DNA of 64,000 nt, taken from the NCBI RefSeq assembly GCF_016772475.1, contig NZ_CP068595.1, forward strand, positions 1,302,001-1,366,000, read 5' to 3'. This DNA is from Paenibacillus sonchi. Lineage in GTDB: Bacteria; Bacillota; Bacilli; Paenibacillales; Paenibacillaceae. Position numbers and translations under genes: made by a program. Shown in pieces: positions 1,678 through 20,247 of this stretch (positions within the stretch are counted from its first letter, which is position 1; the number at the start of each line of letters is the position of its first letter). Below the pieces are notes generated by a model, which did no database searches, was not told the origin of the DNA, and saw only the letters and a list, made by a program, of their open reading frames with translations.

Positions 1678-2739
1678 TCAATCAAATAATTTTAATCTTT
1701 CAATAGAAGGAGCGTAATCGAAGCCTTTTGCATATAAATATTGCTGCTTTGCTTTATCTGTATCACCAATCACCTCGTAATATACACCTAAATTATGGTG
1801 GGCAGCGAAGCTACCTGTCCCTATGACACTTCCCTCTTGTTCCGTTTCACCAATCTCAAGCGCCCTTAAGTAAAAACGTTCGATATACGGAATCAGATCA
1901 CTATATTGATCAGGATCGCTAAGGATGAGCTCCAGAAGAAAAAGAGCAGAGACAAAATAAAAATCCGCAGACTCACTGAGAAAATCCTGCTCCGCTTCAA
2001 CTATGGCCAGTCCCTCATCCAAATGACCTGAAGCAATGATCGCATACAAAAAATTAACGATAAGACTCGGAGCATATCCTTCTTTATGGGTGATTTTACT
2101 ATATGCCTGTTTCAATGAAGCATACGTTTTATCATGTTCGTCTATTCCACGATATTCCTTGGCAATTTGATAGTAGTAATATGGGTCTTGAGGATTCTCC
2201 TCAATTACCTGTAAGAGTATTGGAATATTTCTGTCTGACTTCTTTTTTTCAAAGTAACCATCATGCTGAATCTCTACATCCACTCTCACTCTGGGCAGGT
2301 CAGATACTATCTGTTCATGAATTTTCCCGGAATATCGGCAACTGGATGGGAAAAGACGTGAGATGTAGCTTTGCTCAAAGCTCACTCCATCTTTCGACAT
2401 AAATTTATCTATTCTTTTTATTTGGCCTATGGCAGGAGAATGAGTAATAAAGCTATAAATTTCATCTGCACAGTCGTTAGAAATGTATTCATCAGCGTCC
2501 AGTACCAGGCTCCACTCGCTGGTCGTCTGCTCCAAAGCAAAATTGCGGGCAGCCGCGAAGTCGTTGGTCCACTCGTATTCGAATATCTTGGCATGATAGT
2601 CAGAAGCTATTTGTTTGGTATTGTCTGTGGATCCCGTATCTACAATAATAATTTCGTCCACAAGAGTAAAGACGCTGTCCAGACAGCGTCTTAAGGTTTG
2701 TTCTTCGTTTTTTACGATCATGACTAGGGATATATTCAT
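1678..2739 (-). CDS. GT2 glycosyltransferase with C-terminal TPR-like helices
   Basis: 353 residues. The N-terminal ~90 residues are a GT-A fold GT2 domain: MIVKNEE near residue 7, VDTGSTDNT near 34 and the metal-binding LDADEY near 80. After residue ~180 the protein is all-helical and tyrosine-rich, with TPR-like pairs. The architecture and N-terminal motifs closely match the broken GT2-TPR gene at 18278-20247, so the two look paralogous and bracket the island. It probably transfers a sugar to a protein or glycan acceptor in the cytoplasm. Flagellin is a candidate from context only. A short leader with no clear terminator separates it from the upstream phosphotransferase-like gene, so co-transcription is possible. 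Confidence 0.85.
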   Translation of the reverse strand: MNISLVMIVKNEEQTLRRCLDSVFTLVDEIIIVDTGSTDNTKQIASDYHAKIFEYEWTNDFAAARNFALEQTTSEWSLVLDADEYISNDCADEIYSFITHSPAIGQIKRIDKFMSKDGVSFEQSYISRLFPSSCRYSGKIHEQIVSDLPRVRVDVEIQHDGYFEKKKSDRNIPILLQVIEENPQDPYYYYQIAKEYRGIDEHDKTYASLKQAYSKITHKEGYAPSLIVNFLYAIIASGHLDEGLAIVEAEQDFLSESADFYFVSALFLLELILSDPDQYSDLIPYIERFYLRALEIGETEQEGSVIGTGSFAAHHNLGVYYEVIGDTDKAKQQYLYAKGFDYAPSIERLKLFD

Positions 2740-2816
2740 TTATCCTCCTCAAGAGATATTATTAAGTTACGAGTAGGCACTATAATTTCTACCATATGAC
2801 TAATGATTCAAATGAT

Positions 2817-4337
2817 TTATTCTCTTTGAAACAAACACTCTTTAATAGAGGCGAAAACTTTTTCACCTGACGTTCCGTCGGCATTTGCATATACATTAGC
2901 CGCAATATTAATACGATTCTTAGCCAAAGGGTCATACCCGGTAGGGAATTTTTTTACCAGTTCATACCACGGTTCAGATCGATCGAAAGCATAATAGAAA
3001 ACATCAGGAGGAAGGAGTGAGCCTTTTGGCTCCTTCTCATCCCAAAACAACACTTTTTTCCCTGTTAGTAAGTATGAGCGAAGCAATGAGCCATCAGAAG
3101 ATATCAATACGTCGGCTACCTTTAGAGCAGGTATATAATCTTCAGCTTCATCCAGAATAACCCCGCTGTAAAGTTTATCTTTTCCCTTTATATATTTTTC
3201 AGTTAAATTCACATAATAATCCAAAAGATAGGGGGCATATTTCATTATAGAAATTTTTGTGAGTGGATGAGGACGCCAAATAACAACACTTTGATCGTCA
3301 ATCTTAGGAATACTTAAAAAGTCTACCAATCTTTCCAACGCCTCAAAAGGTATACCTGCGAAAAACATACAACCAGTATTGATTAGGTATACTGTTTTGC
3401 CTTCTACCCTTTCGGCCCACCCATTAGGCAATGGAATGTCCTTCCCCATAGCATTAACTATAGCATCCAACTTTGGTGAACCAAGAACAAGGAGCTTCTC
3501 AGATGGAATTCCATCATGAATAGCTGCCTTTTTTAGATAGTCCCCAACCAATACAATCTTGTCTACATTTTCCACCGTCGGAATGTCATAAGCCAAGCTA
3601 TGCGTATCTGCTTTTGGTGCAACAAATGACGAAATATGATAAGGAACATAAACAAGCATCTCTGTATAATTCCTTAGATTCGAAGTGAAGAACTGCTCAT
3701 GCACACGTGTAAGAGTATTATACTCATCATAAATATTGTGTAAAAACACGATATCCGGTTGTTCTTCCTCCAAAATATAGTCATTGTAATGTGTTATTGG
3801 GATATCCGTGGGAAAGAGTTCACCTTCATAAGTAGGTATAGCCTCGTCTTTTGACAACTTATAATATGGAATAGGAACAACATGAGCCACACAATCCTCA
3901 TCTTTTGCAGCAGTTTTATAAATAGTCTCCAAACTATCCCACATAGAAGCTTTATAGGGGAAAAACACAACATTCAGCTTGACTTGAATTTCTTCTTCAA
4001 AAGATATTTTAAGAGCCGATAGCTGTTTGTCTATGGGGATAATTGAGCTTTTTTCTATATATGCTAAACCTTTAAGAGCTGTAAAAGAGGAATGAATACT
4101 CTGAAGCAGATCTATAGTTTTTTTAGGAGTAGGATTCTCTTGAGATACTTGAAATAAAATAGCTTCTGTTGCTGCCAGACAATCAGAGACTGCATTAGAA
4201 GGATTACTTAATTTGGCCAATAGCTCCTGCATCTGTGAAATGGTATCAATTAACTTTGAAATTCTTTTTTTCTGTTCAAAAACAAAATGATCCCACCTTA
4301 AATGTTTTTTGCTATATAGCATACAAAACAGTTTCAA
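2817..4337 (-). CDS. CDP-glycerol glycerophosphotransferase-like protein
   Basis: 506 residues if started at TTG 4337; an ATG five codons later (4322) is an equal alternative, and neither has a strong ribosome-binding site. The frame overlaps the end of the FkbM gene by 26 nt, suggesting coupled translation. An N-terminal ~110-residue coiled-coil-like region precedes a GT-B-like body. Visible marks are YKASMWDS (~128), the LGSPKLD loop (~283), IWRPHP (~350) and ISSDGS (~410), a pattern seen in TagF/CDP-glycerol phosphotransferase relatives. Such enzymes move polyol-phosphate from a CDP donor. With LicD and a cytidylyltransferase in the same cluster, a phospho-polyol decoration is likely, but donor and acceptor are not shown. 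Confidence 0.7.
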   Translation of the reverse strand: MKLFCMLYSKKHLRWDHFVFEQKKRISKLIDTISQMQELLAKLSNPSNAVSDCLAATEAILFQVSQENPTPKKTIDLLQSIHSSFTALKGLAYIEKSSIIPIDKQLSALKISFEEEIQVKLNVVFFPYKASMWDSLETIYKTAAKDEDCVAHVVPIPYYKLSKDEAIPTYEGELFPTDIPITHYNDYILEEEQPDIVFLHNIYDEYNTLTRVHEQFFTSNLRNYTEMLVYVPYHISSFVAPKADTHSLAYDIPTVENVDKIVLVGDYLKKAAIHDGIPSEKLLVLGSPKLDAIVNAMGKDIPLPNGWAERVEGKTVYLINTGCMFFAGIPFEALERLVDFLSIPKIDDQSVVIWRPHPLTKISIMKYAPYLLDYYVNLTEKYIKGKDKLYSGVILDEAEDYIPALKVADVLISSDGSLLRSYLLTGKKVLFWDEKEPKGSLLPPDVFYYAFDRSEPWYELVKKFPTGYDPLAKNRINIAANVYANADGTSGEKVFASIKECLFQRE

Positions 4338-5411
4338 TCGTATAGTTACTATAATGCCTGATATAAAATTTATAATCAGGAATCAAGCTTTGCAGATAAA
4401 GAGGAATTTCTATAATATCCTCTGGTTTATGATAGATACAAATCGCCAACCTCGGGCGATATTTTAAAATAGTATCTTTTGCTCCTTTTAAAGCTTCAAG
4501 TTCAGCACCTTCAATATCCATTTTTATAAATGAAGCCCTTTGACCATTTAAAACACTATCCAAACTAACCACATTAACATTACTGGTTCCATCCATTTCG
4601 ATAGACGAACCACCACTTCCATCAGCATTAAAGTGAAGAGTTGTGTTTTCACTCCATAAACCGGCATTAATCATCTCAACGTTTTTAACGCCTTTTTCAA
4701 GAATAACTTCTTTACATTTTTTGTAGTTTAATGGATCAGGTTCAAATGCATAAATTTTTTCATAGCTATTATTAGACCATTTTTTAAATACGAGCGAGTT
4801 GCCGAAATCAAAACATCCGGCATCTACAAAAACCTCATTTTCATTTGGTGCTACTATAGATTCTTCAAAATACTGCTTTTCATTTAAAAAATGTGTCAAG
4901 GAGTACGGATCACTATTGAAAAAGAGAATATTTTCTTTACTGAAGCCTAATTCGATTAGTTCACTATATATTTCATTGTTGTATTGTAAAGTAGCAATTA
5001 CAACAATGTCATCTTTATGATTTGTTATTAATTGCTCTGGAGATATTACGGGGAGACCACAATAGTTCTCCTTTTGTTTGATTGGGTTTTTATCACAAAA
5101 AAACTCCATTTAATGCCAATTGATAAAATGGAGTGCAGATATTTGCCCCATCCTCCTGCTCCATAAATGATAAGGTTTTTCTGTTTGAAGACATGCTCCT
5201 GGCATTTAGTTGCCAATTCGATATGTGGATGAATATTTAAAGATGAAAAATCAGGAATTATTGATATAAGTTCCTTAATATACTTCCAATCTGATGTTAG
5301 ATTAAAGAGCAATCTTAATGCAAACAGTTTTTTAGATTCTTTGTCCATTAGACTTTCATAAATTTTATTAGCATTTGGAAAGACCATTTTCAATACGTTT
5401 TCATTTATCAT
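4312..5411 (-). pseudogene. FkbM-family methyltransferase, frame broken in a T7 run
   Basis: Two frames form one gene of about 366 residues. The upstream part (ATG 5411, AGGTGG ribosome-binding site) holds a Rossmann-like IIYGAGGWGKYLHSIL segment and then drifts out of frame. The downstream part resumes at FFCDKNP and continues with GLPVISPEQL and an FkbM domain: VFVDAGCFDFGNS for SAM binding and FIKMDIEGAELEALKGA near the C-terminus. Adding one T to the seven T of the minus strand (plus-strand A at 5097-5103) rejoins them. FkbM proteins O-methylate sugars or aglycones in the cytoplasm. The break is either an assembly undercall, real phase variation, or -1 slippage on T TTT TTT. Confidence 0.8.
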
Positions 5412-5527
5412 TAGAATCTCAACCACCTATCGTCACTTTATATTACTGACATCTACGATTATTCTACTAGTGATCTTTAGCTATCACACATTGGATAGGA
5501 AATCTTAGAGATTGTTTTAGGTCTTTT

Positions 5528-7194
5528 TTATTTCTCTTTGGAATACTCTAGTTCTCTAAGTCTGATACGTAACATTGCATTTTCTTTCTTCACTTCGTTC
5601 AATTCATCATTAGCCCCTGAAATATTTAATAAAGATGACAGAGTTGTTTTCTTGATAACCGAATACCCCTCTCCCCCAGTTCACTTGTAAAATCGTGAGT
5701 ACATACATGCGGCTCCGGTTTCAAAGATGTTGGGGTCGTTATATCACAAACCATAACATCTGGGGAAAAAACAGTAATGGGATAATCAATAAGATTGTTC
5801 ACTTCACTTTTCGGGACTTCATATCTCTCTACAGTGTCTTTAATCTTATTCCTCAGAAAATCCAAAGAATACTTAAATCGATCTGCATTTTTGTATGTTT
5901 CTAAGATTTCACTCATAGCCTCATTTTCGGAAATACCACCAAATACCCAATCAGAGTAGGTTTCTTCGTCCAATAGGGCGAAGAAGGCCCTGCAGTAACG
6001 AACATAATTAAAGGGTCTATCAATAATAATTCGTCTATCTAAATAGATACCTCCTTCTTTCAAAATAAACTTCAAAGCAAAATATCCATTCAAAAAATCA
6101 AAATCATTATTCTCATAAGCTTCTTTCAAAATCTCCAGTTCGTTTATATCACAATTTTTTTCATTTAAAATAGTTATAGTACAACTATCATAAAATGCAT
6201 TCTCCTTACAACTCCTAATAAATCCGTCAGATAATTCCACTCCGATACCTCCTATAAAAATATTACGGGGTATTGGCACATTGGAGATTTCGGCAAACTT
6301 CTCTAATCTTCTATAAAGATACTCATCACTTTTCAGAATTTTGTTATCTTTTAGTTCTACCCATATATCTTTTAATTGCTCAATGAATCTATCGGTAAAA
6401 ATCCATCTTTTTCTAAAATCGCTGTTAATATGACGAGCAACGTAAGCAGCAACATATTCTTTGTACTCTGGATTACACTTATCAAGTGCATATTGTCTTG
6501 CTTGAATTGTATCTAAATTTCGCAATGTAAATACATTGTTACTATCAGAACCAAATCTTTTCATATAATAGTAAACAGGATATTCAATGTATCCAATTTT
6601 TCTAGCATAAGAATGTAAGACAAGTGAATATCCCAAATCTTCTAAACTGACATTTTCCGGCATTCTTCCGACTTTATTTAGTAATCTCTTGTGAATTATT
6701 TTATTCCATAAGTACACTTGACCATTCAAAATAAGTGTCTCGGTTGAAATTGGTTCTTTTAATTGTCCGTATAAAACCCTTTTATCCCCATTCACGTGAA
6801 ACGCAGGAGCGCAAACAATGTCATAATCTTTTTCCTTAGCTTTACAATAAAGCAATTCCATAGAATGGACATCCATTACATCGTCAGCGTCACAAAATCC
6901 AATATAATCAGCCCGTGCTTTCTCGATTGCAAAGTTTCTTGGTGCGCCAGCACCATGTACATGCGGAATTGTGTAAATAATAACCTTCCCAGGGAATTTT
7001 TTCTTATAATCTTCTAAAATAGCTAACGATTCATCAACAGATCCATCATCAACAGCTATGATTTCAATGTTGTCTAACGACTGACTTACAAGCGAATCTA
7101 AACATATTCTCAAATATTTTTCAGAGTTATATACTGGCACAACGATAGTAACCAAAGGTTTTTCTCCATAATATAAAGATCCCTCCTTCATCAC
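5528..7194 (-). pseudogene. GT2 glycosyltransferase with long C-terminal region, frame broken in a G5 run
   Basis: An N-terminal GT2 domain is clear: VTIVVPVYNSEKYL (~15), VDDGSVDES (~46) and the CDADD metal motif (~97). From about residue 310 there is a second region with KEGGIYLDRR, resembling the DXD-containing sugar-binding segment of TcdB/OCH1-type transferases. The called frame stops at 5626. One extra G in the five-G run (plus-strand C at 5673-5677) extends it by about 50 residues through a coiled coil (NDELNEVKKENAML) to a TAA at 5528, giving about 555 residues. ATG 7194 follows AAGGGGG. Acceptor and sugar are unknown; the cluster suggests flagellar or surface glycan. Confidence 0.8.
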
Positions 7195-7240
7195 TGCCCC
7201 CTTAAAAAAATATTTTCACAAAAAAATATAATAAATAACT

Positions 7241-8584
7241 TTAAGAGCTTCTACCTTCATAATAGTTACAAATATCAAAAACAGTTTGGTTGAATTTATT
7301 TATCAGTAACATAACATCATTAGATGAATAATCTATACCCTCTATATCATTTAAAGAGTTCACCCATTTAACTGGGGGTACATTAAATAAAACTTTGTCA
7401 ATCTCCTGCTTAGTAGTAACATAAGGAAACCCCGCAGATTTCAATTGTTTCACAATTTCCGTTGGAATTCGGGTTGCTACAATTATAAGTGTGTTATCTT
7501 TCTCTTTTTCAAGTTCTTCAGGAGAGATACAGGTTATATTATCAAAGAGATATCCCCACTTCCCAGGGTTATTATCAGAAAATGAATCTACTGTAATGAG
7601 CTTACTTCGTAGCTCTTCGTAGAGTCGAATTCCGTATTCCCCCGCACAAAAAATGCTTATTTTCCTCGTCTGCCCATTGGTGAGCTCCTTTATGAACCCC
7701 TTCAGATACAAAAGTTTTTCCGTAAGATCATCAGGAATACTAGAACTTTGAAATTTGTGATTAGCAAATTGATAGGCTTTGGTCATATTGCCTCCTTTAA
7801 AAAAACAAAACATCTTATGATAAAAATTATATGCACTTCCGTACATAGATACTAATTCTTCTTCTGTTAGTGCATTTATAAATCCAACCCGCAACTGACT
7901 CTGCTCAGATTTATAATAATCCAAATTACTTGAAGTATGTGTCCCCTGTTCTTTGTGCAGTCGGATTAATATAAGCGGTTCATTAATATAAAGTGTTCTC
8001 TGATATCGCATCATTCGAAACCAAAGATCATAATCCTGTGTAGTTTTTAAACTTTCCTCAAAAATCCCAACTCGTTCAAAATGACTTTTGTGTATAAGAA
8101 GACTACAGCCATGAATTACCCCTTGTAGCACAGGAAAAACCGAATTCTCCATTTGCTCCATTGGGTACATTTCACTTTGAAAAACATGTGTAATCTCCTG
8201 GTTGTTAGCATTTAGTAAATCATAATCACTGTGGACAATGGCCGTTAGATCACCATGTTCCTGCAACGCCTGCATTTGCCTTTTAATCTTATTTGGATAA
8301 TACATATCATCGTGGGATAGCCAAGAAAAGTACATCCCCTTCATCTTTTGAATGGCCACATTAAGTGCAGTGGCAACCCCACCATTTTCTTTAACATAAT
8401 AACGAATTTTCTCACCATATGATAAAGCAATTTCCTCAGTTACTCCATTATCACACGAGCCATCATTCACTACTATTATCTCTATGTTTGGGTACGTTTG
8501 TGCAAGAGCACTATCAATTGCTTCTCTTAGATAATTTCCCCCGTTATATACAGGGATAATAATTGAAACCAATGGTTCACTCAT
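7241..8584 (-). CDS. GT2 glycosyltransferase, paralogue B (N-terminal half identical to its neighbour)
   Basis: 447 residues from the ATG at 8584, which follows GGAGG. The GT2 domain spans about residues 1-215: IIIPVYNGGNYL, VNDGSCDNG, LSHDDMY and the QDYDLWFRM acceptor-side motif. A helical linker follows, then a Rossmann-like module (IFCAGEYGIRLYEEL ... FSDNNPGKWG ... ISPEELE ... LIIVAT) at about 300-400. Its first ~205 codons are almost base-for-base identical to those of the gene upstream, while the C-terminal halves differ. This suggests two transferases with the same catalytic start but different partners or acceptors. It follows the other copy in the same operon. Confidence 0.88.
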   Translation of the reverse strand: MSEPLVSIIIPVYNGGNYLREAIDSALAQTYPNIEIIVVNDGSCDNGVTEEIALSYGEKIRYYVKENGGVATALNVAIQKMKGMYFSWLSHDDMYYPNKIKRQMQALQEHGDLTAIVHSDYDLLNANNQEITHVFQSEMYPMEQMENSVFPVLQGVIHGCSLLIHKSHFERVGIFEESLKTTQDYDLWFRMMRYQRTLYINEPLILIRLHKEQGTHTSSNLDYYKSEQSQLRVGFINALTEEELVSMYGSAYNFYHKMFCFFKGGNMTKAYQFANHKFQSSSIPDDLTEKLLYLKGFIKELTNGQTRKISIFCAGEYGIRLYEELRSKLITVDSFSDNNPGKWGYLFDNITCISPEELEKEKDNTLIIVATRIPTEIVKQLKSAGFPYVTTKQEIDKVLFNVPPVKWVNSLNDIEGIDYSSNDVMLLINKFNQTVFDICNYYEGRSS

Positions 8585-8595
8585 AAAAATCCTCC
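7977..8595. repeat. 619-bp direct repeat, copy B
   Basis: This block matches 9223-9841 at a constant offset of 1246 with, by eye, two substitutions: one gives QSE versus QSK, and one is silent at a Gly-Ser codon pair. It runs from the ribosome-binding site to codon ~203 of the GT2 gene. Flanking DNA is different on both sides. Confidence 0.9.
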
Positions 8596-8606
8596 TTCCC
8601 ATCACT

Positions 8607-9830
8607 TCATTTAAAAATCTTACTTAAAGGTGGCAGGTAGAAAAGCCCCCTATCAATCTCTTGTTTAGTAGTTAGGTAAGGAAAATCGAGTTTTTTTAAT
8701 TGTTCAACAATTATTTCAGGAGCTCGATTTGCCACGATTACTAAGGTATTATCTTTCTCCCCTTTGAGTTGTTCGGGAGGTATACAAGGAACTCCACCAT
8801 AGCCTTCCGCCCATCTCTGAGAGTTATTGTCCGAAAACCAATCTATTTGAATACGCTTATTCTTTAACTCTTGGTATAACTCAATTCCATATTCACCCAC
8901 ACAGAAAATGCACGTTTTAGTAGCTTTCCCATGAGAAATATTAGATATATAATTTTTAAAATTTGTTACACTCTCCTCAATATCGTGAGGAATAGTAGAA
9001 TCATTATATTTATTCATTGCGTAAAGATACGCTTCTTCCATCAATTGTTTTCCGAAAAATTTACTCATTCTATAAAAAAAGTTATTTGCACTACCATACA
9101 TAGACTCCATTTCATCTTCGGTTAATGAATCTAAGAATCTAATATGCAGTTGACATTGTTCAAATTGATGGGAAATCACTGTTTTACTTCCCTGTGTATT
9201 GTGAATTCTGGCTATTAGTAATGGTTCATTAATATAAAGTGTTCTCTGATATCGCATCATTCGAAACCAAAGATCATAATCCTGTGTAGTTTTTAAACTT
9301 TCCTCAAAAATCCCAACTCGTTCAAAATGACTTTTGTGTATAAGAAGACTACAGCCATGAATTACCCCTTGTAGCACAGGAAAAACCGAATTCTCCATTT
9401 GCTCCATTGGGTACATTTTACTTTGAAAAACATGTGTAATCTCCTGGTTGTTAGCATTTAGTAAATCATAATCACTGTGGACAATGGCCGTTAGATCACC
9501 ATGTTCCTGCAACGCCTGCATTTGCCTTTTAATCTTATTTGGATAATACATATCATCGTGGGATAGCCAAGAAAAGTACATCCCCTTCATCTTTTGAATG
9601 GCCACATTAAGTGCAGTGGCAACCCCACCATTTTCTTTAACATAATAACGAATTTTCTCACCATATGATAAAGCAATTTCCTCAGTTACTCCATTATCAC
9701 ACGAACCATCATTCACTACTATTATCTCTATGTTTGGGTACGTTTGTGCAAGAGCACTATCAATTGCTTCTCTTAGATAATTTCCCCCGTTATATACAGG
9801 GATAATAATTGAAACCAATGGTTCACTCAT
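8607..9830 (-). CDS. GT2 glycosyltransferase, paralogue A
   Basis: 407 residues. The same GT2 catalytic domain as its downstream neighbour occupies residues 1-207. The C-terminal half then diverges but keeps the order: a linker and a Rossmann-like module with IFCVGEYGIELYQEL, FSDNNSQRW, IPPEQLK and LVIVANR. The ATG at 9830 has GGAGG 7 nt upstream, part of the duplicated block. Only 22 nt separate it from paralogue B, so they are co-transcribed. It is likely a cytoplasmic transferase using a nucleotide-sugar; the specific sugar cannot be read from sequence. Confidence 0.88.
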   Translation of the reverse strand: MSEPLVSIIIPVYNGGNYLREAIDSALAQTYPNIEIIVVNDGSCDNGVTEEIALSYGEKIRYYVKENGGVATALNVAIQKMKGMYFSWLSHDDMYYPNKIKRQMQALQEHGDLTAIVHSDYDLLNANNQEITHVFQSKMYPMEQMENSVFPVLQGVIHGCSLLIHKSHFERVGIFEESLKTTQDYDLWFRMMRYQRTLYINEPLLIARIHNTQGSKTVISHQFEQCQLHIRFLDSLTEDEMESMYGSANNFFYRMSKFFGKQLMEEAYLYAMNKYNDSTIPHDIEESVTNFKNYISNISHGKATKTCIFCVGEYGIELYQELKNKRIQIDWFSDNNSQRWAEGYGGVPCIPPEQLKGEKDNTLVIVANRAPEIIVEQLKKLDFPYLTTKQEIDRGLFYLPPLSKIFK

Positions 9831-11124: not shown

Positions 11125-12249
11125 CTACTTCCCCCAAACCTTCTTATCAATAATTCTGGTATAACTCTGTATAATACGAATTACAGTTGAGGAAACTTTC
11201 ATTTCAGAATAGTCGGGAACTATCGAGCCAAAATCATCATCTTCCCCCATCCCAACAGCAATCTCTACAGATTGCAGCAATTGCTCCTTCGTAATCCCTC
11301 CAATAACAAAGCAACCTTTATCGAGTGCTTCAGGTCGTTCTGTAGAGGTTCTAATACTAACTGCGGGAAAATTGCACATAGCACTTTCCTCAGGCAAAGT
11401 TCCACTATCAGAAACAACACAAAATGCATTTTGTTGTAGTGAACTATAATCCGTAAAGGAAAATGGAGCAAGCTTCTGAACAAGAGGATGAAATTGAAAC
11501 TCTCGTTGTTCTATTAACCGTGCACTGCGCGGATGCATGGAGTAAATCACTGTCATCTGGTACTTCTCTGCTAAGGCATTTACAGCGTTCATTAAGCTAA
11601 AAAAATTCTCTTCGATATCCACGTTCTCTTCCCGATGAGCAGAGAGTAAGATATACTTGCCCTTCTCAAGCGATAGTTTTTCTAAAATCCTACTACTTTC
11701 TATCTCAGCTCTGTGAGCAAAAATCACTTCAGCCAGTGGTGAACCTGTAACATAAATATGTTCTTTGCGTACTCCTTCTGCCAACAAATAACGTCTAGCA
11801 TGCTCAGTATATGGAAGACTGATATCTGCAATATGATCCACAATACGACGGTTAGTTTCTTCCGGGAGGTTCTCGTCAAAGCAGCGATTGCCTGCTTCCA
11901 TATGGAAGATTGGGACTTTCAGCCTTTTCGCAGAAATTGCCGAAAGCGCAGAATTAGTATCACCAAGGATTAATAAGGCATCAGGTTTAATATCTCTCAT
12001 TAACTCATATGACTTGGAAATGATACTTCCCATAGTCTGCCCTAAATGCTCACCTACCACATTGAGGTAGTAATCGGGAGTACGAAGTTTCAGGTCAGTA
12101 TAGAATATTTCATTCAAATGATAATCATAATTTTGACCCGTATGCACAAATACATGTTCGAAATATTGATCAGCTTTTTTGATGATTTCAGACAAACGTA
12201 TCATTTCTGGTCGTGTCCCTACAATCGTCATTAGTTTTAATTTATTCAA
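11125..12249 (-). CDS. UDP-N-acetylglucosamine 2-epimerase family (CapG/FnlC-like)
   Basis: 374 residues, normal for the WecB/MnaA fold. GTRPEMIRLSEI (~11) is the nucleotide-sugar loop, and EAGNRCFDENLPEETNRR (~118) carries the catalytic Glu/Asp set. The NRCFD...PEE variant is the form I associate with CapG/FnlC epimerases acting on 6-deoxy sugars rather than plain WecB. SAHREEN and SDSGTLPEE are also present. The start appears to be TTG 12249, after GGGGGAT; an ATG six codons later is possible. It directly follows the dehydratase and reductase genes, so it should be the third step (C2 epimerisation) of a UDP-2-acetamido-2,6-dideoxy-L-hexose pathway. It could alternatively supply UDP-ManNAc to TagA. 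Confidence 0.88.
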   Translation of the reverse strand: MNKLKLMTIVGTRPEMIRLSEIIKKADQYFEHVFVHTGQNYDYHLNEIFYTDLKLRTPDYYLNVVGEHLGQTMGSIISKSYELMRDIKPDALLILGDTNSALSAISAKRLKVPIFHMEAGNRCFDENLPEETNRRIVDHIADISLPYTEHARRYLLAEGVRKEHIYVTGSPLAEVIFAHRAEIESSRILEKLSLEKGKYILLSAHREENVDIEENFFSLMNAVNALAEKYQMTVIYSMHPRSARLIEQREFQFHPLVQKLAPFSFTDYSSLQQNAFCVVSDSGTLPEESAMCNFPAVSIRTSTERPEALDKGCFVIGGITKEQLLQSVEIAVGMGEDDDFGSIVPDYSEMKVSSTVIRIIQSYTRIIDKKVWGK

Positions 12250-12263
12250 TCAATATCCCCCAC

Positions 12264-13115
12264 TTAAAAATAATGTGGATAGAGCTCTTTATGAGCATCA
12301 ATCCACTCCTTTGTTCCTTTGATCATTTGTTCATATGATGGTACCCTGAAATTGAAATCCGTTCTAGTATTTATTAAAGACTTATCAACTTGTAGTGAAT
12401 CACTTTCAATAATATCAATCTGTTCCTTCTTTAAATATCGGTTAAAAAGCTGCAATAGCTTATACTTACTAATAGTCTCATTGTTAACAAGATGATAAAG
12501 CCCACTCAAATTATGCACCAATGCATGTTCAATAGCTTGTGCTAAAGTTATAGTTGAAACCCCTGTCCAAATAGCTGAAGCAAATCCATTCACAGGATCT
12601 TTTTGTTTTAGAAACCAATTTAACAGCCCAGTGCCATTCTCTTTGATATCCGGTCCAATGATAGATGTTCTAATTGTAAGGTTTTTAGAATCGTTGATTT
12701 CTCCTAAGGATTTAGATCTACCATAGAACGAATCCGAATCCTTGAAGCTATCCTCAAGGTACCCTCCAATTCTGCCGGAGAATACACAGTCTGTGCTTAA
12801 ATGAACAAACTTTGTTTTTGTTTCTTTCAAGATATCTGCTACAAAATGCGGAAGATAGCTGTTCAGAAAAATGCCATTAGAAAGATGCTCATCGACCTCT
12901 TTATTCAATACACCTATACAGTTAATCACCGCATCAAATAAATCGCTGCTAATCACAGCCTTCAAAGTTTCCTTATTTAAAGCATCACCTAAAAGAGTAT
13001 CACAGTAGGAAAGGTTATTTTTGGCAAACCCTATAACTTCATGCCCTTTTTCAAGTAAAGATATGGTAGCAATATGACCTGCCATCCCACCGGCACCAAG
13101 CACTAAAATCCTCAT
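12264..13115 (-). CDS. RmlD-like NAD(P)H sugar-nucleotide reductase
   Basis: 283 residues, an extended SDR. The N-terminal cofactor loop is LGAGGMAGH (~6), and the catalytic YGRSK sits near 129. STDCVFSG is the RmlD-type active-site strand. It lacks the C-terminal cupin domain of CapF (which is about 370 residues), so it resembles the RmlD-like reductases used for UDP-L-QuiNAc/RhaNAc more than CapF. The start overlaps the upstream stop as ATGA, indicating translational coupling. Predicted role: 4-keto reduction of the product of the upstream dehydratase. The exact stereochemistry cannot be read from sequence. Confidence 0.82.
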   Translation of the reverse strand: MRILVLGAGGMAGHIATISLLEKGHEVIGFAKNNLSYCDTLLGDALNKETLKAVISSDLFDAVINCIGVLNKEVDEHLSNGIFLNSYLPHFVADILKETKTKFVHLSTDCVFSGRIGGYLEDSFKDSDSFYGRSKSLGEINDSKNLTIRTSIIGPDIKENGTGLLNWFLKQKDPVNGFASAIWTGVSTITLAQAIEHALVHNLSGLYHLVNNETISKYKLLQLFNRYLKKEQIDIIESDSLQVDKSLINTRTDFNFRVPSYEQMIKGTKEWIDAHKELYPHYF

Positions 13116-14116
13116 ATTCTCAGCTCACTTTGAACGTAATCGAGTTGTAATAACTTCTCTTTTACCTGCGCTACATTTAAAACGGTGGTATTATTAGAAT
13201 TAAACTCTGTAAGAGGCGATTTCTCCGTCTTTCCAACTTCAAAATATTGAGCATAATTTAAATCACGATTATCTGCAGGAACTTGATAGTAATTCCCCAA
13301 GTCTCTTGCATGCAGACATTCCTCTTGTGTAAGCAAGGTTTCATATGTCTTTTCTCCATGCCTAATCCCAATATATTGAATTTCAGCATTGGAGTTGAAG
13401 ATTTCCTTTAAAGCTTGTGCTAGAACACCAATTGTTGAGGCCGGGGCTTTTTGCACCATTATATCCCCCGGTTGTGCATTCTCAAAAGCAAACAAAACCA
13501 GTTCTACTGCTTCTTCTAAACTCATGATGAATCGTGTCATATTAGGATCAGTGATAGTAAGCGGCTTATTCTGTTTAATCTGCTCTATAAATAAAGGAAT
13601 GACTGAACCTCTTGAACCCATAACGTTTCCGTATCTTGTTCCACTTATCACTGTTCTATCAGTAGTGCGTGATTTAGCAACAAATACTCGCTCCATCATA
13701 GATTTACTTATTCCCATAGCGTTTATTGGATACGCGGCTTTATCCGTAGACAAGCAAATTACTTTTTTAACCCCTTCTGCTATTGCTGCTGTAAGGACAT
13801 TTTCTGCGCCAATCACGTTAGTTTTGACAGCCTCCATTGGAAAAAATTCGCATGATGGCACTTGTTTTAGAGCTGCTGCGTTAAATACGTAGTCAACGCC
13901 ATACATCGCATTTTGAACACTGTGCAAATCACGAACATCTCCAATATAAAATTTAAGTTTATTGCTTTTATATTTACGTCTCATATCATCCTGTTTCTTC
14001 TCATCTCTGGAGAAAATACGAATTTCTTTAATGCCTGTATCTAAAAAACGTTTCAATACTGCATTGCCAAAAGACCCTGTTCCACCAGTAATCATTAAAG
14101 TCTTATCTTTAAACAA
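13112..14116 (-). CDS. UDP-N-acetylglucosamine 4,6-dehydratase/5-epimerase (CapE/FlaA1 type)
   Basis: 334 residues from TTG 14116, chosen because AAGGAG lies 9 nt before it and FKDKTLMITGGTGSFG is where CapE proteins begin. GGTGSFG is the NAD(P) loop. STDKA followed by NAMGISK shows the catalytic Tyr replaced by Met, typical of this short FlaA1/CapE/PseB subgroup. SGTRYGNVMGSRGSV is also present. It converts UDP-GlcNAc to a 4-keto-6-deoxy sugar with C5 inversion. A PseB role in the pseudaminic acid route is the main alternative, but no PseC/PseF/PseI homologue lies in this cluster, whereas a reductase and a C2-epimerase follow directly. Confidence 0.88.
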   Translation of the reverse strand: MFKDKTLMITGGTGSFGNAVLKRFLDTGIKEIRIFSRDEKKQDDMRRKYKSNKLKFYIGDVRDLHSVQNAMYGVDYVFNAAALKQVPSCEFFPMEAVKTNVIGAENVLTAAIAEGVKKVICLSTDKAAYPINAMGISKSMMERVFVAKSRTTDRTVISGTRYGNVMGSRGSVIPLFIEQIKQNKPLTITDPNMTRFIMSLEEAVELVLFAFENAQPGDIMVQKAPASTIGVLAQALKEIFNSNAEIQYIGIRHGEKTYETLLTQEECLHARDLGNYYQVPADNRDLNYAQYFEVGKTEKSPLTEFNSNNTTVLNVAQVKEKLLQLDYVQSELRI

Positions 14117-14164
14117 ATGCACACGCTCCTTCTTCAAAAATCACTTTTCAATTTCATTCATAAA

Positions 14165-15517
14165 TTAATATTTCATAGTAAGTGTTTTTTCATTATTCAA
14201 AAACGACTCAATAATCCCTGTGATCACAATAGACTCTTTAGGGGTCAATTTAAACCCTTTCTTCTCATTGCCATAAATCATCGAAATAAAATCACTTAAT
14301 TCATATCGTAATCCTTCAGCCGCAAACTTCGAGAAGAACTTTTCATTATGTTCAGGTTGTTCATGCCTCACTTCGAAATACTGTGTTTTCCACCAAGGTG
14401 CTTCCACGTATATATAGCCCTGGGTCCCAGAAATCAGCAATTGCCCCTCTGATTTAACCCCTAACCCTATCTTGGCGGTAGAAACTGCATTCTCATAATT
14501 CAGGTAAATCTTTGTGTACAAATCAACGTTGTTACCATCAACAAAGGTTTCAAATCTTACATTCTTATAATCAGTGCCTAATAGCTTCACTATAGCCATG
14601 AGGGGATAGCTTGCAAGTTCAGTAACACTGCCGCCATTTTCTTCTCTACTTAATTCCCGGAGATCTCCGGATACCAGCTTGGTAAAGCTAGCCTCCACAT
14701 CCCGGATGCGGCCAATCCTGCCGCTTTTTGCAATAGCCAAAAGCTTGAGAAAGCCTGGAGCGTAAGCCGTTTTAATTGCTTCTAACAAGACAAGATCTTT
14801 ATCTTTAGCCAAATGATAGAGCTCTTCAGCCTGGGCAGTCTGCAGGACCATCGGTTTCTCACATAAGACATGCTTTCCCTGTTCCAGTGCTTTTCGAATA
14901 TACTCATAATGTGTGTTGTGCGGAGAAGCAATATATACAGCATCAACCTTATCGAAAAATGTATCAAGATCATCCGTATAAAATTTCAACTCGAACTGTT
15001 CTGCATACTTTCTAGCACTCTCTATTCGAGGATTGTAAACCCCTTCAAGATTGGTTCCACTTACATATTTAACTTCTGGTGCAAAACGCACAGCAATCCT
15101 TCCACTCCCAATGACACCGAGCCTGATAATACTATAATTCTGCTGTCTAATCATGGTGCTGGAGATCCCCTTGGTGCGCTCTAAATAAACAACTTCACAA
15201 TATTGCTGCAAGAAATCAAATTTTCCATACCAATCCGAACCGACAGTGAAAATATCCACTCCATATTTTTGAATATCCTCAACCTTTTGCCCTTCATGAT
15301 CCTCTATTACAATCTCATCAGCAAAGCCTGTTTGTTTGATATTTTCAATTCTCTCCATAAGAGAATTTATAACATTCATCTTCCCCCGATATTCGTCATA
15401 TTGCTGAGTTGTTACTCCAACAATAAGATAGTCCCCAAGCTCTTTGGCACGTTGCAATAATCTATAGTGACCCTCATGAAACAAATCAAAAGATCCATAG
15501 GTAATTACTTTCTTCAT
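14165..15517 (-). CDS. fused cytidylyltransferase (TagD-like) and Gfo/Idh/MocA oxidoreductase
   Basis: 450 residues, two domains. Residues 1-~128 are a TagD-type nucleotidyltransferase: TYGSFDLFHEGHY contains the H-x-G-H site, and RTKGISSTMIR is the C-terminal signature. Residues ~132-450 are a Gfo/Idh/MocA oxidoreductase: LGVIGSGRIA (cofactor loop), CEKPMVL with the EKP motif, and the central beta-sheet domain. Both halves look intact and the frame is continuous. The likely chemistry is reduction of a keto or aldehyde polyol-phosphate precursor and its activation with CTP to a CDP-polyol. Neighbouring LicD and the CDP-glycerol phosphotransferase-like protein would use it. CDP-glycerol is the default guess; CDP-2-glycerol or a longer alditol is equally open. 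Confidence 0.85.
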   Translation of the reverse strand: MKKVITYGSFDLFHEGHYRLLQRAKELGDYLIVGVTTQQYDEYRGKMNVINSLMERIENIKQTGFADEIVIEDHEGQKVEDIQKYGVDIFTVGSDWYGKFDFLQQYCEVVYLERTKGISSTMIRQQNYSIIRLGVIGSGRIAVRFAPEVKYVSGTNLEGVYNPRIESARKYAEQFELKFYTDDLDTFFDKVDAVYIASPHNTHYEYIRKALEQGKHVLCEKPMVLQTAQAEELYHLAKDKDLVLLEAIKTAYAPGFLKLLAIAKSGRIGRIRDVEASFTKLVSGDLRELSREENGGSVTELASYPLMAIVKLLGTDYKNVRFETFVDGNNVDLYTKIYLNYENAVSTAKIGLGVKSEGQLLISGTQGYIYVEAPWWKTQYFEVRHEQPEHNEKFFSKFAAEGLRYELSDFISMIYGNEKKGFKLTPKESIVITGIIESFLNNEKTLTMKY

Positions 15518-15539
15518 TCGTCACACTCCAATCTCTGAA

Positions 15540-16379
15540 TTACTCATCATCAGGCTGCAGAAGCCGATAATGTGTAGAAGCATGTCCTTGACGCTGTTCC
15601 AATGGAGGAAATTCAAGATATTTCCCAAACTTAAAAGTCAAATAGCCATCGTAATCCTTTGCAGCCGGAAAGTAATGACCTTCAAATTCTATATCCGCTA
15701 ATTCAACATACCATTTTTTGTAATAACCATAGTATCCATTATTCGGAGTAGGAAAGGTTAAGATTCGGACAAGCTGCGTAGGTTTCTTATTACTCTGCCG
15801 CATTAATTTATCATACAGCGAAAATACGAAGTCTCTCGAGAAAAGTGAAAGGCCTCGGTATATACCACGCATCATTAGCTTTGAGTCCGATTTCGCTCCA
15901 ACTTCAGACCACAGCATTTTTCGAATTACAGTACATGCAAGATTATGAATTCGACGAACAATAAGATTATCTGGCACATTATCTAATGGAAATATATCAA
16001 TAAAAACTCCCGTTCTATAAGGCATATGTTCTTGTCCTTTTCTTACAAACTCTGTTCCAACACGTCGGATCTTGCCGTAACCCCAGCGATACCCGGGTGT
16101 GTTGGCATGAGTTTGCAAGTAAAAGCGTGTCTGGTCCAATTCCTCCTCACAAGCTTTACAAAACTTTTCATACTCAGGACGGAGCATAGCTACATCAGCA
16201 TCATCATCCCAAGGAATATACCCTTTATGACGCACTGCTCCTAGTGTGGTGCCCGCTATGATACAATATCGTATGTCACGCTTCTTACAGATGCGATCGA
16301 CTTCCAGAAGCATTTCAAGCTGTATCAGTTGCATCTGCCTTAGATCTTCAGGAGGCATTGCTCTATACTCCATCACCAT
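15540..16379 (-). CDS. LicD-family phosphotransferase
   Basis: 279 residues. The LicD nucleotidyltransferase-fold core is clear: CIIAGTTLGAVRHKGYIPWDDD (~38-60) with the DDDAD metal motif, then GVFIDIFPLD (~123). LicD proteins transfer phosphocholine or other phospho-alcohols from CDP donors to glycans; fukutin-type relatives transfer ribitol- or glycerol-phosphate. ATG 16379 follows GGAGG by 7 nt. It is the first gene of the long minus-strand glycan operon, behind a sigma-A-like promoter, and lies next to the gene that probably makes the CDP donor. Confidence 0.9.
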   Translation of the reverse strand: MVMEYRAMPPEDLRQMQLIQLEMLLEVDRICKKRDIRYCIIAGTTLGAVRHKGYIPWDDDADVAMLRPEYEKFCKACEEELDQTRFYLQTHANTPGYRWGYGKIRRVGTEFVRKGQEHMPYRTGVFIDIFPLDNVPDNLIVRRIHNLACTVIRKMLWSEVGAKSDSKLMMRGIYRGLSLFSRDFVFSLYDKLMRQSNKKPTQLVRILTFPTPNNGYYGYYKKWYVELADIEFEGHYFPAAKDYDGYLTFKFGKYLEFPPLEQRQGHASTHYRLLQPDDE

Positions 16380-16445
16380 AGTTTTACCTCCCCTTCTATT
16401 TAGACATCATATTATCATCCAGACCTTATTTTCGATTATCGTTTC

Positions 16446-16473
16446 ATTATATAAATTCGACATAAAAATACAA
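16446..16473 (-). promoter_or_regulatory. sigma-A-like promoter of the licD glycan operon
   Basis: The minus strand reads TTGTAT (16468-16473), 16 nt, TATAAT (16446-16451), about 66 nt before the licD ATG. The -10 is perfect and the -35 weaker. No sigma-D-like motif was seen here. Confidence 0.55.
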
Positions 16474-16595
16474 AACCCTCATATTTATGATTAATCGCTA
16501 CATTTTTTTTAATTTTCTTATCTATATTATCGGTCTTTTTGTGTTGAACATTAAGACCATGCATATTTAGTAATGTAGTAATTGCTTCCATTTAC

Positions 16596-16731: not shown

Positions 16732-16960
16732 ATATATGCTCTAAACTCAAATCCCTCCCGGATGAACTGGACTCCTGCTATCTTGAATAGAGTCTGGGGA
16801 TATCCTACTATGCTACCTTAATCCATTATACGCCCTTCTGGGTCGTCCTTCAGTCGGAACCAGACGCATCCCTTAGACTGTAACAGGACTACGACGAGGA
16901 ACACTGTATCACTCCCCAGGACTTTGTATATAATACTCAAATAATTCACTCCTCAAAATT

Positions 16961-16988
16961 AAAAACCCCACCATTGCTGGTAGGGTAT
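16961..16988 (-). terminator. terminator of the Pro-Thr linker protein gene
   Basis: The minus strand reads ACCCTACC, loop AGCAAT, GGTGGGGT followed by TTTTTAATTTT. It lies about 30 nt past the stop codon at 17019. Confidence 0.7.
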
Positions 16989-17018
16989 AGTGCTCGTTAC
17001 TGGAACAACGTGTAAATA

Positions 17019-17972: not shown

Positions 17973-18237
17973 TTCGTCCACTCCTTTAATATACATGCAT
18001 CAAGCTTACACTAAATAAAGGCGAACAAACAGTCTGTTTCTCGACAGAAATTTACAATACACTTAAGGGTTGTTGAGGAAATATGTGGATTGAAATCCAA
18101 GGGTTTCGAACTCCATACTACTGGCTAACAGCAGTCTTTTGTCCGCTAGCTCTTTTTTCTCACCAAGGTGCCATTTCTAGCTCTTCCTCCTTCCATGGCT
18201 CCTAGCAGATCCCATTTATGTTTGTTATCCTATCAAA

Positions 18238-18266
18238 AAAGACGCATCCACTGGATACGTCTTAGA
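18238..18266 (-). terminator. terminator after the fliD-operon glycosyltransferase
   Basis: The minus strand reads AAGACGTATCC, a short loop and GGATGCGTCTT followed by TTTTGA, 12 nt beyond the stop. It marks the end of the flaG-fliD-fliS-fliT-glycosyltransferase unit. The 18019-18237 stretch downstream holds no gene. Confidence 0.8.
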
Positions 18267-18277
18267 GCAATATTATA

Positions 18278-20247
18278 TTAAGCTTTTTTTGCATTATTTA
18301 AAAAGTTATGAACAAATGAAATACCACCATACTCGGGGAATTGCAAGTTAAACTTATCTATAAAGTATTGCTTTTGTTCCCTAGTTGCATGCTGTATTAA
18401 TGAGTAATATAGATGTTTGGCTTTAGGCTGCTTATCTATCGCTTCATTAAGGAACTCAACGGCATCAGAGTAGTAGCCTTGATTTGCATGATATAACCCA
18501 AGATTTACTAGACTATTAAAATCCAGCTCCTTCTGGGACAATAATATACTATAGTAATTCATGGCCATGTCGGTTAGGTTTAAGGTGTAAAAATAATTCG
18601 CCAGTTGGTTGATTATACCAGGTAATTTGCAAAGCTGAATAAATTGATCAAATTTCTCAAACTCTTTTATTAGGAATAGCTGTTTGCTAACTAAAAACAA
18701 TGAACTGGAATAATGTTTTAATAATCCTTCTTCCACAGATGAATTTTCAAAAAACAGCTTCTCCACAATTGAAGTCAACTGAGTGATATCATCATGATCC
18801 AAGATTCGCGTGATTTCATGAAGTCTTTGAAGGGAATTCCACTTAAGAGCACCCACAACCATCTGAACCCAAATCTGAAGTTTCCAATCCACGTCATTAT
18901 TCACTTCAGGAATTGAAAGGGACATCCATTCTTCTTGTTTATCTGTTAAAATTGCGTAGCGAAACTGATCCAGAATATTAATATTATCCAACTTAGTCAG
19001 GTATTTTTCGTAATAATTAACCAACTCAGCCTGACCTAATACCAGCGATATTTTAAATAAAAGATTACATTCTGCTTCATTTCTCACATCATATATTTTA
19101 TCTAGAAATCCTATTATTGCAGCAGGTTCTTCATTCTGACACAGCCATTCCACCAATTTTAATAACACTTTTGGATTTCTGTTATTTTTATTCAAGAGCT
19201 TGGACAACCAATATATAGCCTGCTGATTATCATTTAAACGAAAATAAATATCTACGAGCTGCTGCACCGGTGTCTCGAAACTGTACATCGGATCAACAAG
19301 CCAAATCTCTTGATTTCTTTTTGCTCTTTGTTCTGCGGTGTTAATTGCCTGTAAGTAAGATGCTATTGCATCGTCAAAAAAACCCAAGGTCTCAAAATGA
19401 ATTCCCTTAATGGTATGATATTCTGAAAAATCCTTATATTTATATAATTCTTTTTCAGTCCAGCGCCATGAGGAGTCCAAACGACCATTCTTAAAGTACA
19501 AGCTTATAAGTCCCATCAAACAATGCGAGTACCATGCCTCTTTAGCCGTTGCACCTTTTGCTGCGCGTTCATAACATTGAAGCGCCTCCTCATCCTCCTT
19601 TCCAAAGCGATATTGGTTACCAAGTGTAAACCAATCGTAGGCGCTCAGTTTGTTAGCCTTCTTCATTTCATTAAAGATCGACATGTTCCGTTCATGCTTG
19701 CTCTTTTCTGTTACGCGTTGAAGCTGATACCCTGTATGATAAATCTCAAGAGAAATTTTTTTATGCAATAACTTCTCTTTACCGCCCCTTGTTAATTGTT
19801 CGTGAATAGGACGTTCAAAGTGTATTCCTTTAAAGTTTGGAAACAGACGTGTTACTGGAGCTGTCGTCATTTCCTCCTGATAATCTTTTTCCCGGTAAAA
19901 TTAATGACTGGCAGTGTATAGGCAAGATGGGCCTGCGGCTTCTCCTTCTGGAGAAATTCGATCCATTTCGAATGATCATTTGAACCCAAATATTCATCCG
20001 CATCAAGTACTAAAATCCACTTTCCAGCAGCATGACGAAGCGATTCATTTCGGGCAGCAGCAAAATCATTGGACCATACGTAATCATAGATCTTTGCACC
20101 GTAGTTTTCCGCAATCTGTTTGGTTCTATCAGTTGATCCGGTATCAACGATAATAATCTCGTCAGCAATTCCTTTCACACTTTCCAAACAGCGTGACAAA
20201 AGAGCTTCTTCATCCTTCACGATCATACAAACACTAAGTTGCGTCAT
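18278..20247 (-). pseudogene. GT2-TPR glycosyltransferase of the fliD operon, frame split in an A5 run
   Basis: Two frames make one protein of about 656 residues. The first, ATG 20247, is a GT2 domain: MIVKDEEALLSRCLESV, VDTGSTDRT, LDADEYLGS. It stops with TGA at 19867. The second continues with TRLFPNFKGIHFERPIHEQ, the usual end of this GT2 domain, and then ~500 residues of TPR-like helices. Adding one A to five A (plus-strand T at 19886-19890) joins them as GKKDYQEEMTTAP. Alternatively AGGAGG beside an ATGA stop-start could allow re-initiation, though its spacing (2 nt) is too tight to be good. The gene starts 21 nt after the fliT-like stop, so it is in the fliD operon. That context argues for a flagellin-modifying transferase. 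Confidence 0.82.

Follow-up and report, generated by a model that had tools for sequence, protein, structure and literature searches.

A putative flagellin-glycosylation cassette with CDP-polyol-type phosphotransfer genes, exchanged beside the late flagellar genes of a Paenibacillus

Why do enzymes of the teichoic-acid type lie next to a flagellin gene? Phosphate-linked small-alcohol chemistry is best known from cell-wall teichoic acids, and LicD, TagD and TagF-like enzymes are classically associated with wall polymers, capsule and S-layer glycans. Here, we analysed a stretch of 64,000 nucleotides (the window) from a soil bacterium, a Paenibacillus close to P. jilunlii. A minus-strand block of 18.6 kb (1678..20247) between fliT and a cold-shock gene adjoins flagellin and the late flagellar genes and contains two GT2-TPR proteins, three GT2, one GT4, LicD, a TagF-like protein, FkbM and nucleotide-activating enzymes. 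Gene families were called by Pfam, ten proteins also by NCBIfam. The enzyme families listed in the first-pass annotation were recovered, with the correction that two of the genes are split over two frames. The features are:

1232-1426, cold-shock gene (PF00313, 110 bits)
1678..2739 (-), GT2-TPR protein A, 353 aa (PF00535, 88 bits)
2817..4337 (-), TagF-like (CDP-polyol phosphotransferase-like) protein, 506 aa (profile and fold)
4312..5109 (-), FkbM methyltransferase domain (PF05050, 62 bits)
5046..5426 (-), N-terminal part of FkbM, in another frame
5626..7194 (-), GT2 with an extra C-terminal domain, 522 aa (PF00535, 116 bits)
7241..8605 (-), GT2, 454 aa, tandem paralogue (PF00535, 106 bits)
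8607..9830 (-), GT2, 407 aa, tandem paralogue forming a repeat with the preceding gene (PF00535, 105 bits)
9898..11076 (-), GT4 glycosyltransferase (PF00534, 68 bits)
11125..12249 (-), UDP-HexNAc 2-epimerase of WecB/QnlB/FnlC type (TIGR00236, 230 bits, cut-off 210)
12264..13115 (-), RmlD-like 4-keto reductase (PF04321, 71 bits)
13112..14137 (-), UDP-GlcNAc 4,6-dehydratase/5-epimerase, FnlA-like (PF02719, 343 bits)
14165..15517 (-), fusion of a TagD-type cytidylyltransferase with a Gfo/Idh/MocA oxidoreductase (PF01467 and PF01408)
15540..16379 (-), LicD-family phosphotransferase, first gene of the cassette (PF04991, 132 bits)
16527..16553 (-), flagellar sigma-type promoter-like element, CCGATAA at 16533-16527
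18278..19870 (-), GmaR-like glycosyltransferase, TPR part (Pfam)
19867..20247 (-), GmaR-like glycosyltransferase, GT2 part, in another frame (PF00535, 82 bits)
20269..22867 (-), fliT, fliS, fliD and flaG (the last three by Pfam)
22898..22904 (-), CCGATAT element upstream of flaG-fliD-fliS-fliT-GmaR-like
22994..23764 (-), hag, flagellin of 256 aa, the presumed acceptor

An Rfam scan of positions 1-28000 at gathering scores gave no matches. With a probability of roughly 0.7, we read this block as a horizontally exchanged flagellin-glycosylation cassette whose product would carry a cap added from a CDP-polyol by LicD and/or the TagF-like enzyme. We infer the acceptor, the sugar identities, the order of steps and the CDP-linked group as follows. 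The GmaR-like GT2-TPR protein would start the glycan by attaching a sugar, probably GlcNAc, to Ser/Thr of the short flagellin centre, in the cytosol before export, and the GT2, GT4 and second GT2-TPR proteins would lengthen the glycan. A sugar of L-QuiNAc or L-FucNAc type, from the FnlA-like, RmlD-like and epimerase enzymes, may be among the building units. The TagD-Gfo/Idh fusion would produce a CDP-activated glycerol-like polyol, whose phosphate LicD and/or the TagF-like protein would transfer to the glycan, and FkbM would methylate the glycan.

The exchange was computed from the comparison with two sister species (G030 and G048). The flanks are 90-97% identical to both, and the interior is replaced, with one border near position 2755 and the other at 16.3-16.5 kb. 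GT2-TPR protein A forms the conserved distal edge (91-96% identity to the sister copies), and remnants of the LicD/TagD-Gfo start persist in both sisters. The cassette has a GC content of 36.3%, compared with 49.0% at 27-64 kb.

Is the link of such genes to the flagellar locus a common feature of the genus? TagD is present in 13 of 100 sampled genus genomes and absent from 87, and 10 of the 13 carriers have it no more than 10 kb from fliS; LicD occurs in 13/100 (7 of them with a distance to fliS of up to 27 kb), and PF04464 at a score of at least 100 bits in 14/100 (near fliS in 9). Thus, LicD, TagD and strong PF04464 genes concentrate at fliS in the genus beyond chance. In another genus, Cohnella panacarvi has homologues of LicD (76% identity to the window), TagD-Gfo (85%), GT2 (63%) and the TagF-like protein (60%), which adjoin hag-fliD-fliS and a GmaR-like gene. 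Not all islands of this kind include the phospho part, since one of the nine genomes nearest by FliS (G035) has no TagD, LicD or PF04464 match. A Pse/Leg-Maf island was rejected for the window, as Pfam finds no NeuB match in its island; a locus of another clade (L013) carries Maf, PseB-type and NeuB genes at the same place. TagD-Gfo genes also occur elsewhere: 65 of 80 loci have no flagellar genes within 10 kb, 38 of the 80 stretches being incomplete, and one genus genome (G077) has a non-flagellar copy of the TagD-Gfo/TagF-like/LicD toolkit.

The sugar enzymes at 11125-14137 belong to the families Epimerase_2, RmlD-like and Polysacc_synt_2. The FnlA-like protein has TIGR04130 as its best match (526 bits, under the cut-off of 730), and the RmlD-like reductase, in which no cupin domain was found, scores 70 bits in NCBIfam against a cut-off of 224. 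The gene set suggests 2-acetamido-2,6-dideoxy-L-hexose, of the L-QuiNAc or L-FucNAc type, as the sugar made, rather than the plain 6-deoxy-L-hexose of the first-pass annotation.

What could the CDP-linked group be? Residues 1-126 of the TagD-Gfo fusion align to the glycerol-3-phosphate cytidylyltransferase 1coz (E 3.5e-34), yet the TagD half reaches 106 bits against the curated equivalog, below its cut-off of 165 (NCBIfam). LicD has a WDDD-D motif that is invariant across six aligned sequences. The protein described earlier as CDP-glycerol phosphotransferase-like is TagF-like by profile and fold, but has no Pfam match of its own: for PF04464 (cut-off 22.1), relative L074 scores 30.6 bits, L072 scores 15.4 bits, and L064, like the window protein, has no match. 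Its fold fits TagF/TarL but is equally close to UDP-GlcNAc 2-epimerases, and its 506-aa sequence gave no matches in a search against PDB. Flagellin might be glycosylated with a CDP-linked group that is no polyol, but an oxidised or other compound (e.g. glyceric acid) or an amino-acid derivative. We consider this rather unlikely. It would suit the fusion of TagD to an oxidoreductase, the GroA-2-phosphate of the P. alvei S-layer glycan, for which a CDP-glycerol phosphotransferase domain origin is predicted (in the part of PMC2943079 used here), and the models for C. difficile and P. aeruginosa, in which a TagF-like enzyme moves phospho-N-methylthreonine or its dimethyl form (in the parts of PMC10714395 and PMC11833859 used here). 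Against it stand the alignment of the cytidylyltransferase half to a glycerol-3-phosphate enzyme, with the sub-cut-off score given above, and the Pfam calls on the island ORFs, which include no phosphoserine-phosphatase-like gene and FkbM as the sole methyltransferase.

A different explanation for the locus would be that the island was once functional and is now decaying in this strain, its flagella being unmodified or absent. The GmaR-like gene, FkbM and FlgL (25054-25647 and 24740-25054) are each spread over two frames. The relatives are intact: the L007 homologues of FkbM are single ORFs of 370-378 aa, the GmaR-like gene occupies one ORF of 656 aa in both G030 and G048, and the copies of the window and G048 differ in length by one base. 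When frames were surveyed over 40 kb of G048 past hag, the same type of break was seen in the window for 5 of 30 G048 genes with a close match there, FlgL among them. Indel errors of the assembly explain the breaks better than decay does, and we regard decay as improbable.

The presumed acceptor bears out what was claimed at first, a short flagellin with a Ser/Thr-rich centre near the island: Hag has 38% Ser/Thr in residues 126-175 and 16% elsewhere. It is the only flagellin found in the genome, the other Flagellin_N match being FlgL. The neighbouring fliT has no Pfam match and was called from its position and from homologues beside fliS. A transferase indeed lies within the fliD operon itself, as first annotated, now as two overlapping ORFs, and this GmaR-like gene adjoins fliT in 9/9 genomes nearest by FliS. 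Its intact relatives have an N-terminal GT2 of GmaR type followed by TPR, and residues 4-194 of an intact relative match Listeria GmaR (22ao) at E 1.1e-39. Listeria GmaR is described, in the part of PMC9638930 used here, as a flagellin O-GlcNAc transferase that moves GlcNAc onto flagellin and doubles as MogR antirepressor; it has the GT2 and TPR architecture in common with the intact relatives, whereas in the window a cassette of further enzymes follows the GmaR-like gene. Because the fliD-operon transferase is homologous to GmaR, we take flagellin as the probable acceptor. It is very improbable that another exported protein, such as FliD/FlgK or the (TP)n protein at 17019-17996, serves instead. 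The latter, a secreted-looking protein without Pfam match that is not a glycan enzyme, does sit within the island and has a counterpart in G030 (89%), but was not found in the matching stretch of G048, which retains the GmaR-like gene and a cassette.

The promoter element also ties the cassette to the flagellum. In 13 of 15 loci, the window included, the -10 core CCGATA[AT], picked post hoc after inspection of the sites, lies upstream of the first island gene at a distance of at most 200 bases; the corresponding counts are 28/50 for flagellar starts and 14/273 for intergenic controls. All of the initial ten islands have it (10/10); five more were added, with the core present in L013, L014 and L018, which belong to another clade, and absent from L008, one of the nine nearest, and from L026, the latter a LicD-bearing island. 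The ten islands are not independent and represent about four lineages, judged from the aligned sites; the per-lineage count is 4/4 (p about 7e-6 against the control rate, for these first ten islands, without L008 and L026). The full sigma-D consensus TAAA-N15-GCCGATAA with at most 2 mismatches is weak on its own, since it occurs 14 times in the window compared with 7 expected and 2 of 100 shuffles reach 14. With N16 there was no excess in the window (6 compared with 6.2 expected), nor in a generic promoter scan (65 compared with 73 expected).

Least probable of all is that the cassette makes a wall polymer, capsule or S-layer glycan beside the flagellar genes by accident: in a few genus genomes (G077, and G049, whose cluster has two 9-TM proteins) LicD/TagD/TagF-like genes do form clusters that lack flagellar genes, but here no flippase/ABC exporter, polymerase or lipid-carrier transferase family was called among the island ORFs (Pfam) and no convincing transmembrane segment was found in the cassette enzymes, a flagellar-type promoter core lies upstream, the location is retained despite replacement of the content and also in another genus, and a profile search of the genome gave no second LicD, no second TagD and no PF04464 match, the last being a limited argument because the island's own diverged TagF-like protein escapes that profile. 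Taken together, the computed gene families, GmaR homology, cassette replacement, promoter core, membrane-free enzymes, lack of LicD, TagD or PF04464 matches elsewhere in the genome and link to the flagellar locus support the flagellin-glycosylation reading first proposed, as far as sequence can indicate it.

How does a flagellin-glycosylation cassette of this kind relate to known systems, as presented in the parts of the papers cited here? In the model for C. difficile 630 Type A (CD0240-CD0244; PMC10714395), a glycosyltransferase acts on flagellin, a cytidylyltransferase makes a CDP-activated group and a TagF-like phosphotransferase transfers it. Shared with the window are genes predicted for these three activities, including a TagF-like enzyme that also resembles UDP-GlcNAc 2-epimerase. 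Type A differs in its N-methylthreonine group, the phosphatase-like CD0241 and the methyltransferase CD0243, and the window in its TagD-oxidoreductase fusion, LicD, extra glycosyltransferases and deoxy-amino-sugar pathway. The P. aeruginosa PAO1 b-type system (PA1088-PA1091), modelled as a single flagellin deoxyhexose with a phosphodiester-linked group (PMC11833859), follows the same modelled logic but with N,N-dimethylthreonine and four genes only. Geobacillus flagellin islands are likewise variable and low in GC beside flagellar genes, with FkbM in some and tagD in one strain, but make Pse, rhamnose and other sugars (PMC5109656); the main text of that paper has 0 occurrences of 'LicD' and 'phosphotransferase'. 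The P. alvei S-layer glycan (WsfC) comes from the same genus and is a protein-linked glycan bearing glyceric acid phosphate, but involves lipid-linked assembly, membrane transferases, an ABC exporter and a different acceptor (PMC2943079). Flagellin glycosylation in P. alvei, same in genus and presumed acceptor, is cited as required for motility (Janesch 2016, in PMC5109656 and PMC13317340).

The system would thus be a variant of known phospho-linked flagellin glycans that follows their modelled logic but uses a different CDP donor. The earlier claim that the combination is undescribed does not hold in full, since models of related glycans exist for C. difficile and P. aeruginosa and tagD is present in one Geobacillus flagellin island. 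In the open-access literature (titles and abstract starts), no phosphoglycerol-modified flagellin was among the matches listed, LicD occurred together with flagellin glycosylation only for Campylobacter genomes, and the matches for CDP-glycerol phosphotransferase and flagellin included the C. difficile Type A model; for a cytidylyltransferase-oxidoreductase fusion we found no paper. Judging from these searches, polyol-phosphate flagellin is undescribed in the open-access literature searched.

We tentatively propose, at somewhat less than even odds, that Paenibacillus has recruited teichoic-acid chemistry to the flagellum: TagD would be mainly a flagellar-locus gene, flagellin would carry a polyol-phosphate cap, the cassettes would be driven by the flagellar sigma factor and swapped between species and genera, and related modules would decorate the flagella of some Cohnella, Lachnospiraceae and other Firmicutes. 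The cap is perhaps glycerol- or glyceric-acid-phosphate, and by related modules we mean the TagD-Gfo/Idh fusion with TagF-like, LicD and GmaR-like proteins. If true, phospho-linked flagellin glycans would extend from two amino-acid examples to polyols, the clustering of TagD, LicD and TagF-like genes at flagellin in a genus mostly without TagD would be explained, and promoter mark and gene set would offer a means to recognise such islands. Charged, fast-changing flagellar surfaces may also bear on motility, flagellotropic phages and plant recognition.

The gene set that the first-pass annotation had described between the cold-shock gene and fliT is present in the window's gene order, and that account of the content holds overall, with corrections required on three points: which genes are split, what type of sugar is made, and what the 506-aa protein (here called TagF-like) is.

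Genes of the island and its surroundings, and copies of a flagellar sigma -10 core
22994-23764, minus strand: hag, then flaG, fliD, fliS and fliT in reading order
20247-18278, minus strand: GT2-TPR gene after fliT, split over two frames
17019-17996, minus strand: secreted-looking (TP)n protein, between the GT2-TPR gene and LicD
minus strand: LicD, then the TagD-Gfo/Idh fusion, in order after the (TP)n protein
minus strand: FnlA-like, RmlD-like and 2-epimerase enzymes, in order after the fusion
minus strand: GT4, then three GT2, in order after the 2-epimerase
minus strand: FkbM, in two frames, after the three GT2
minus strand: TagF-like protein, second GT2-TPR protein and cold-shock gene, at the distal end
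16533-16527, minus strand: CCGATA[AT], preceding LicD
22904-22898, minus strand: CCGATA[AT], preceding flaG-fliD
28123-28117, minus strand: CCGATA[AT], 337 bases upstream of an ORF starting at 27779

A role of the island in flagellin glycosylation is well supported, and its phospho-polyol part is a likely prediction. In all nine genomes nearest by FliS, the fliD operon's GT2-TPR gene adjoins fliT (55-98% identity), and the intact 656-aa copy in G048, one of the two nearest sisters, matches Listeria GmaR over residues 4-194 (E 1.1e-39). According to PMC9638930, GmaR adds GlcNAc to flagellin, which its TPR part is proposed to recognise. Hag is short, with a Ser/Thr-rich centre (38% vs 16% elsewhere). 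By Kyte-Doolittle analysis the cassette enzymes have no convincing transmembrane segment, the two hits (GT4, RmlD-like protein) being read as buried Rossmann strands; this fits glycan assembly directly on a cytosolic protein rather than lipid-linked polymer synthesis.

The site is conserved and its content is exchanged. A FliS match is present in every one of the 100 genomes of the genus that were searched (the window's genome among them), and for 58 of the remaining 99 we retrieved 20 kb around fliS, giving 60 stretches (the extra two from G048 and the other nearest sister, G030, whose FliS is 98% identical to the window's). The flanks of both sisters match the window at 90-97%, with gaps, to ~2755 on one side and from ~16.3-16.5 kb on the other, and between them lies another cassette, which retains at its start a short run of window LicD and TagD-Gfo fragments; both also hold a whole TagD-Gfo gene of ~62% identity. 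GC content is 36.3% in the window cassette, compared with 49.0% at 27-64 kb. In another genus, Cohnella panacarvi carries LicD (76% identity), TagD-Gfo (85%), one GT2 (63%) and the TagF-like protein (60%) adjoining hag, fliD, fliS and a GmaR-like gene. At this position, another Paenibacillus clade has a pseudaminic-acid-type set that includes Maf, PseB-type and NeuB (L013:10346-15821), from which we infer that the site serves flagellin glycosylation beyond the window's clade.

An alternative cassette was seen in P. jilunlii (L004:3888-6194, L042:6417-8825, L042:3166-5204). It codes for a fusion of NTP_transferase and SHMT, a protein combining spermine-synthase-like and cytidylyltransferase domains, a GDPD and a calcineurin-like phosphoesterase; this would be further phospho-chemistry, possibly a phospho-amino-acid group. 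Within the window, the tandem GT2 genes 7241-8605 and 8607-9830 have nearly identical N-terminal halves (95% over 300 bases by repeat search) and diverged C-termini, a pattern that suggests recent duplication or gene conversion. The (TP)n protein has an 89% copy in G030, was not found in the fetched G048 stretch and is followed by a terminator-like site at 16986-16965.

Joining a TagD-type cytidylyltransferase to an oxidoreductase in one protein, which the first-pass annotation did not spell out, is common: both domains occur in all but one of the 120 proteins listed among at least 7999 scored candidates. Among 80 public loci of the fusion, the best-scoring of at least 587 confirmed matches and one of them (L082) G030's own, a TagF-like neighbour occurs in 45, LicD in 47 and at least one of the two in 61, and flagellar genes lie within 10 kb in 15 (12 of the 42 full-length stretches); on these counts the toolkit is not flagellum-specific. 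Its flagellar version accompanies GmaR-like transferases (at least 60 bits), found at 11 of these best 80 loci, 10 of them flagellar. Polytopic membrane ORFs occur at 0/15 flagellar vs 17/65 other loci of the same 80.

The window genome has one LicD and one TagD match, both in the island, and no PF04464 match. Across the 100 genomes, TagD (E 1e-10) gives 16 matches in 13, of which 10 have it no more than 10 kb from fliS (2.4-8.2 kb); LicD gives 20 in 13, with 11 matches in seven genomes within 27 kb; and PF04464, counted at 100 bits or more, gives 20 in 14, nine within 27 kb. LicD or PF04464 lies near fliS in 15/100 genomes, some others being on separate contigs of fragmented assemblies, where distance cannot be judged. 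The other three of the 13 TagD genomes are G063, G077 and G049. G063 and G077 have two LicD and TagD-Gfo in a cluster on another contig than fliS, with a TagF-like gene seen in G077, the one of the two that was fetched; the TagD of G049 belongs to a cluster of capsule-like type that includes two 9-TM proteins. A second TagD of G047 lies at a distance of 52 kb. The G077 cluster (L146/L147) also contains several soluble GTs, adjoins two 8-9 TM proteins and has no flagellar genes.

Of the nine nearest genomes, six have TagD and a PF04464 protein after the GmaR-like gene, on the opposite strand; G035, also among the nine, has no match for TagD, PF04464 or LicD. At L006:6481-7971 the PF04464 CDP-glycerol phosphotransferase domain is fused to TPRs, next to TagD and the GmaR-like gene. 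The terminal TPRs were scanned in L006 alone, with which the genes of L007 and L009-L012 align, and this protein is a candidate flagellin-directed phosphotransferase.

The flagellar sigma -10 core CCGATA[AT], chosen after a first look at the sites, is found no more than 200 bases ahead of the first island gene at 13 of the 15 loci: in the window, in L004-L007, L009-L012 and L064, and, from another clade, in L013, L014 and L018. It is missing there in L008 and L026. Six of these 13 have a longer stretch of sequence in common, L004/L005 are sisters and L013/L014 have equal distances, so that independent cases number far fewer than 13; the L064 gene start is a tblastn match, not a start codon. 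In the fetched loci the core occurs at 28/50 flagellar gene starts vs 14/273 intergenic control starts. Up to 28.5 kb in the window, the minus strand has three further copies, all within genes.

Of 30 genes compared with G048, five are split over frames in the window, probably by indel errors of assembly: FlgL (24740-25647) and 29614-31652, 37745-41788, 62178-63172 and 63442-63740, each in one frame in G048 and in at least two here.

The island would work like the Type A flagellin glycan system of C. difficile but is not counted as a member, because the phosphatase-like and N-methyltransferase genes of Type A were not found among its scanned ORFs. In PMC10714395 (C. difficile) and PMC11833859 (P. 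aeruginosa b-type flagellin), the same logic is modelled, namely a CDP-activated group and TagF-like transfer to a flagellin-bound sugar. Thus, the kind of system that the island probably encodes is already known, and its version would be new.
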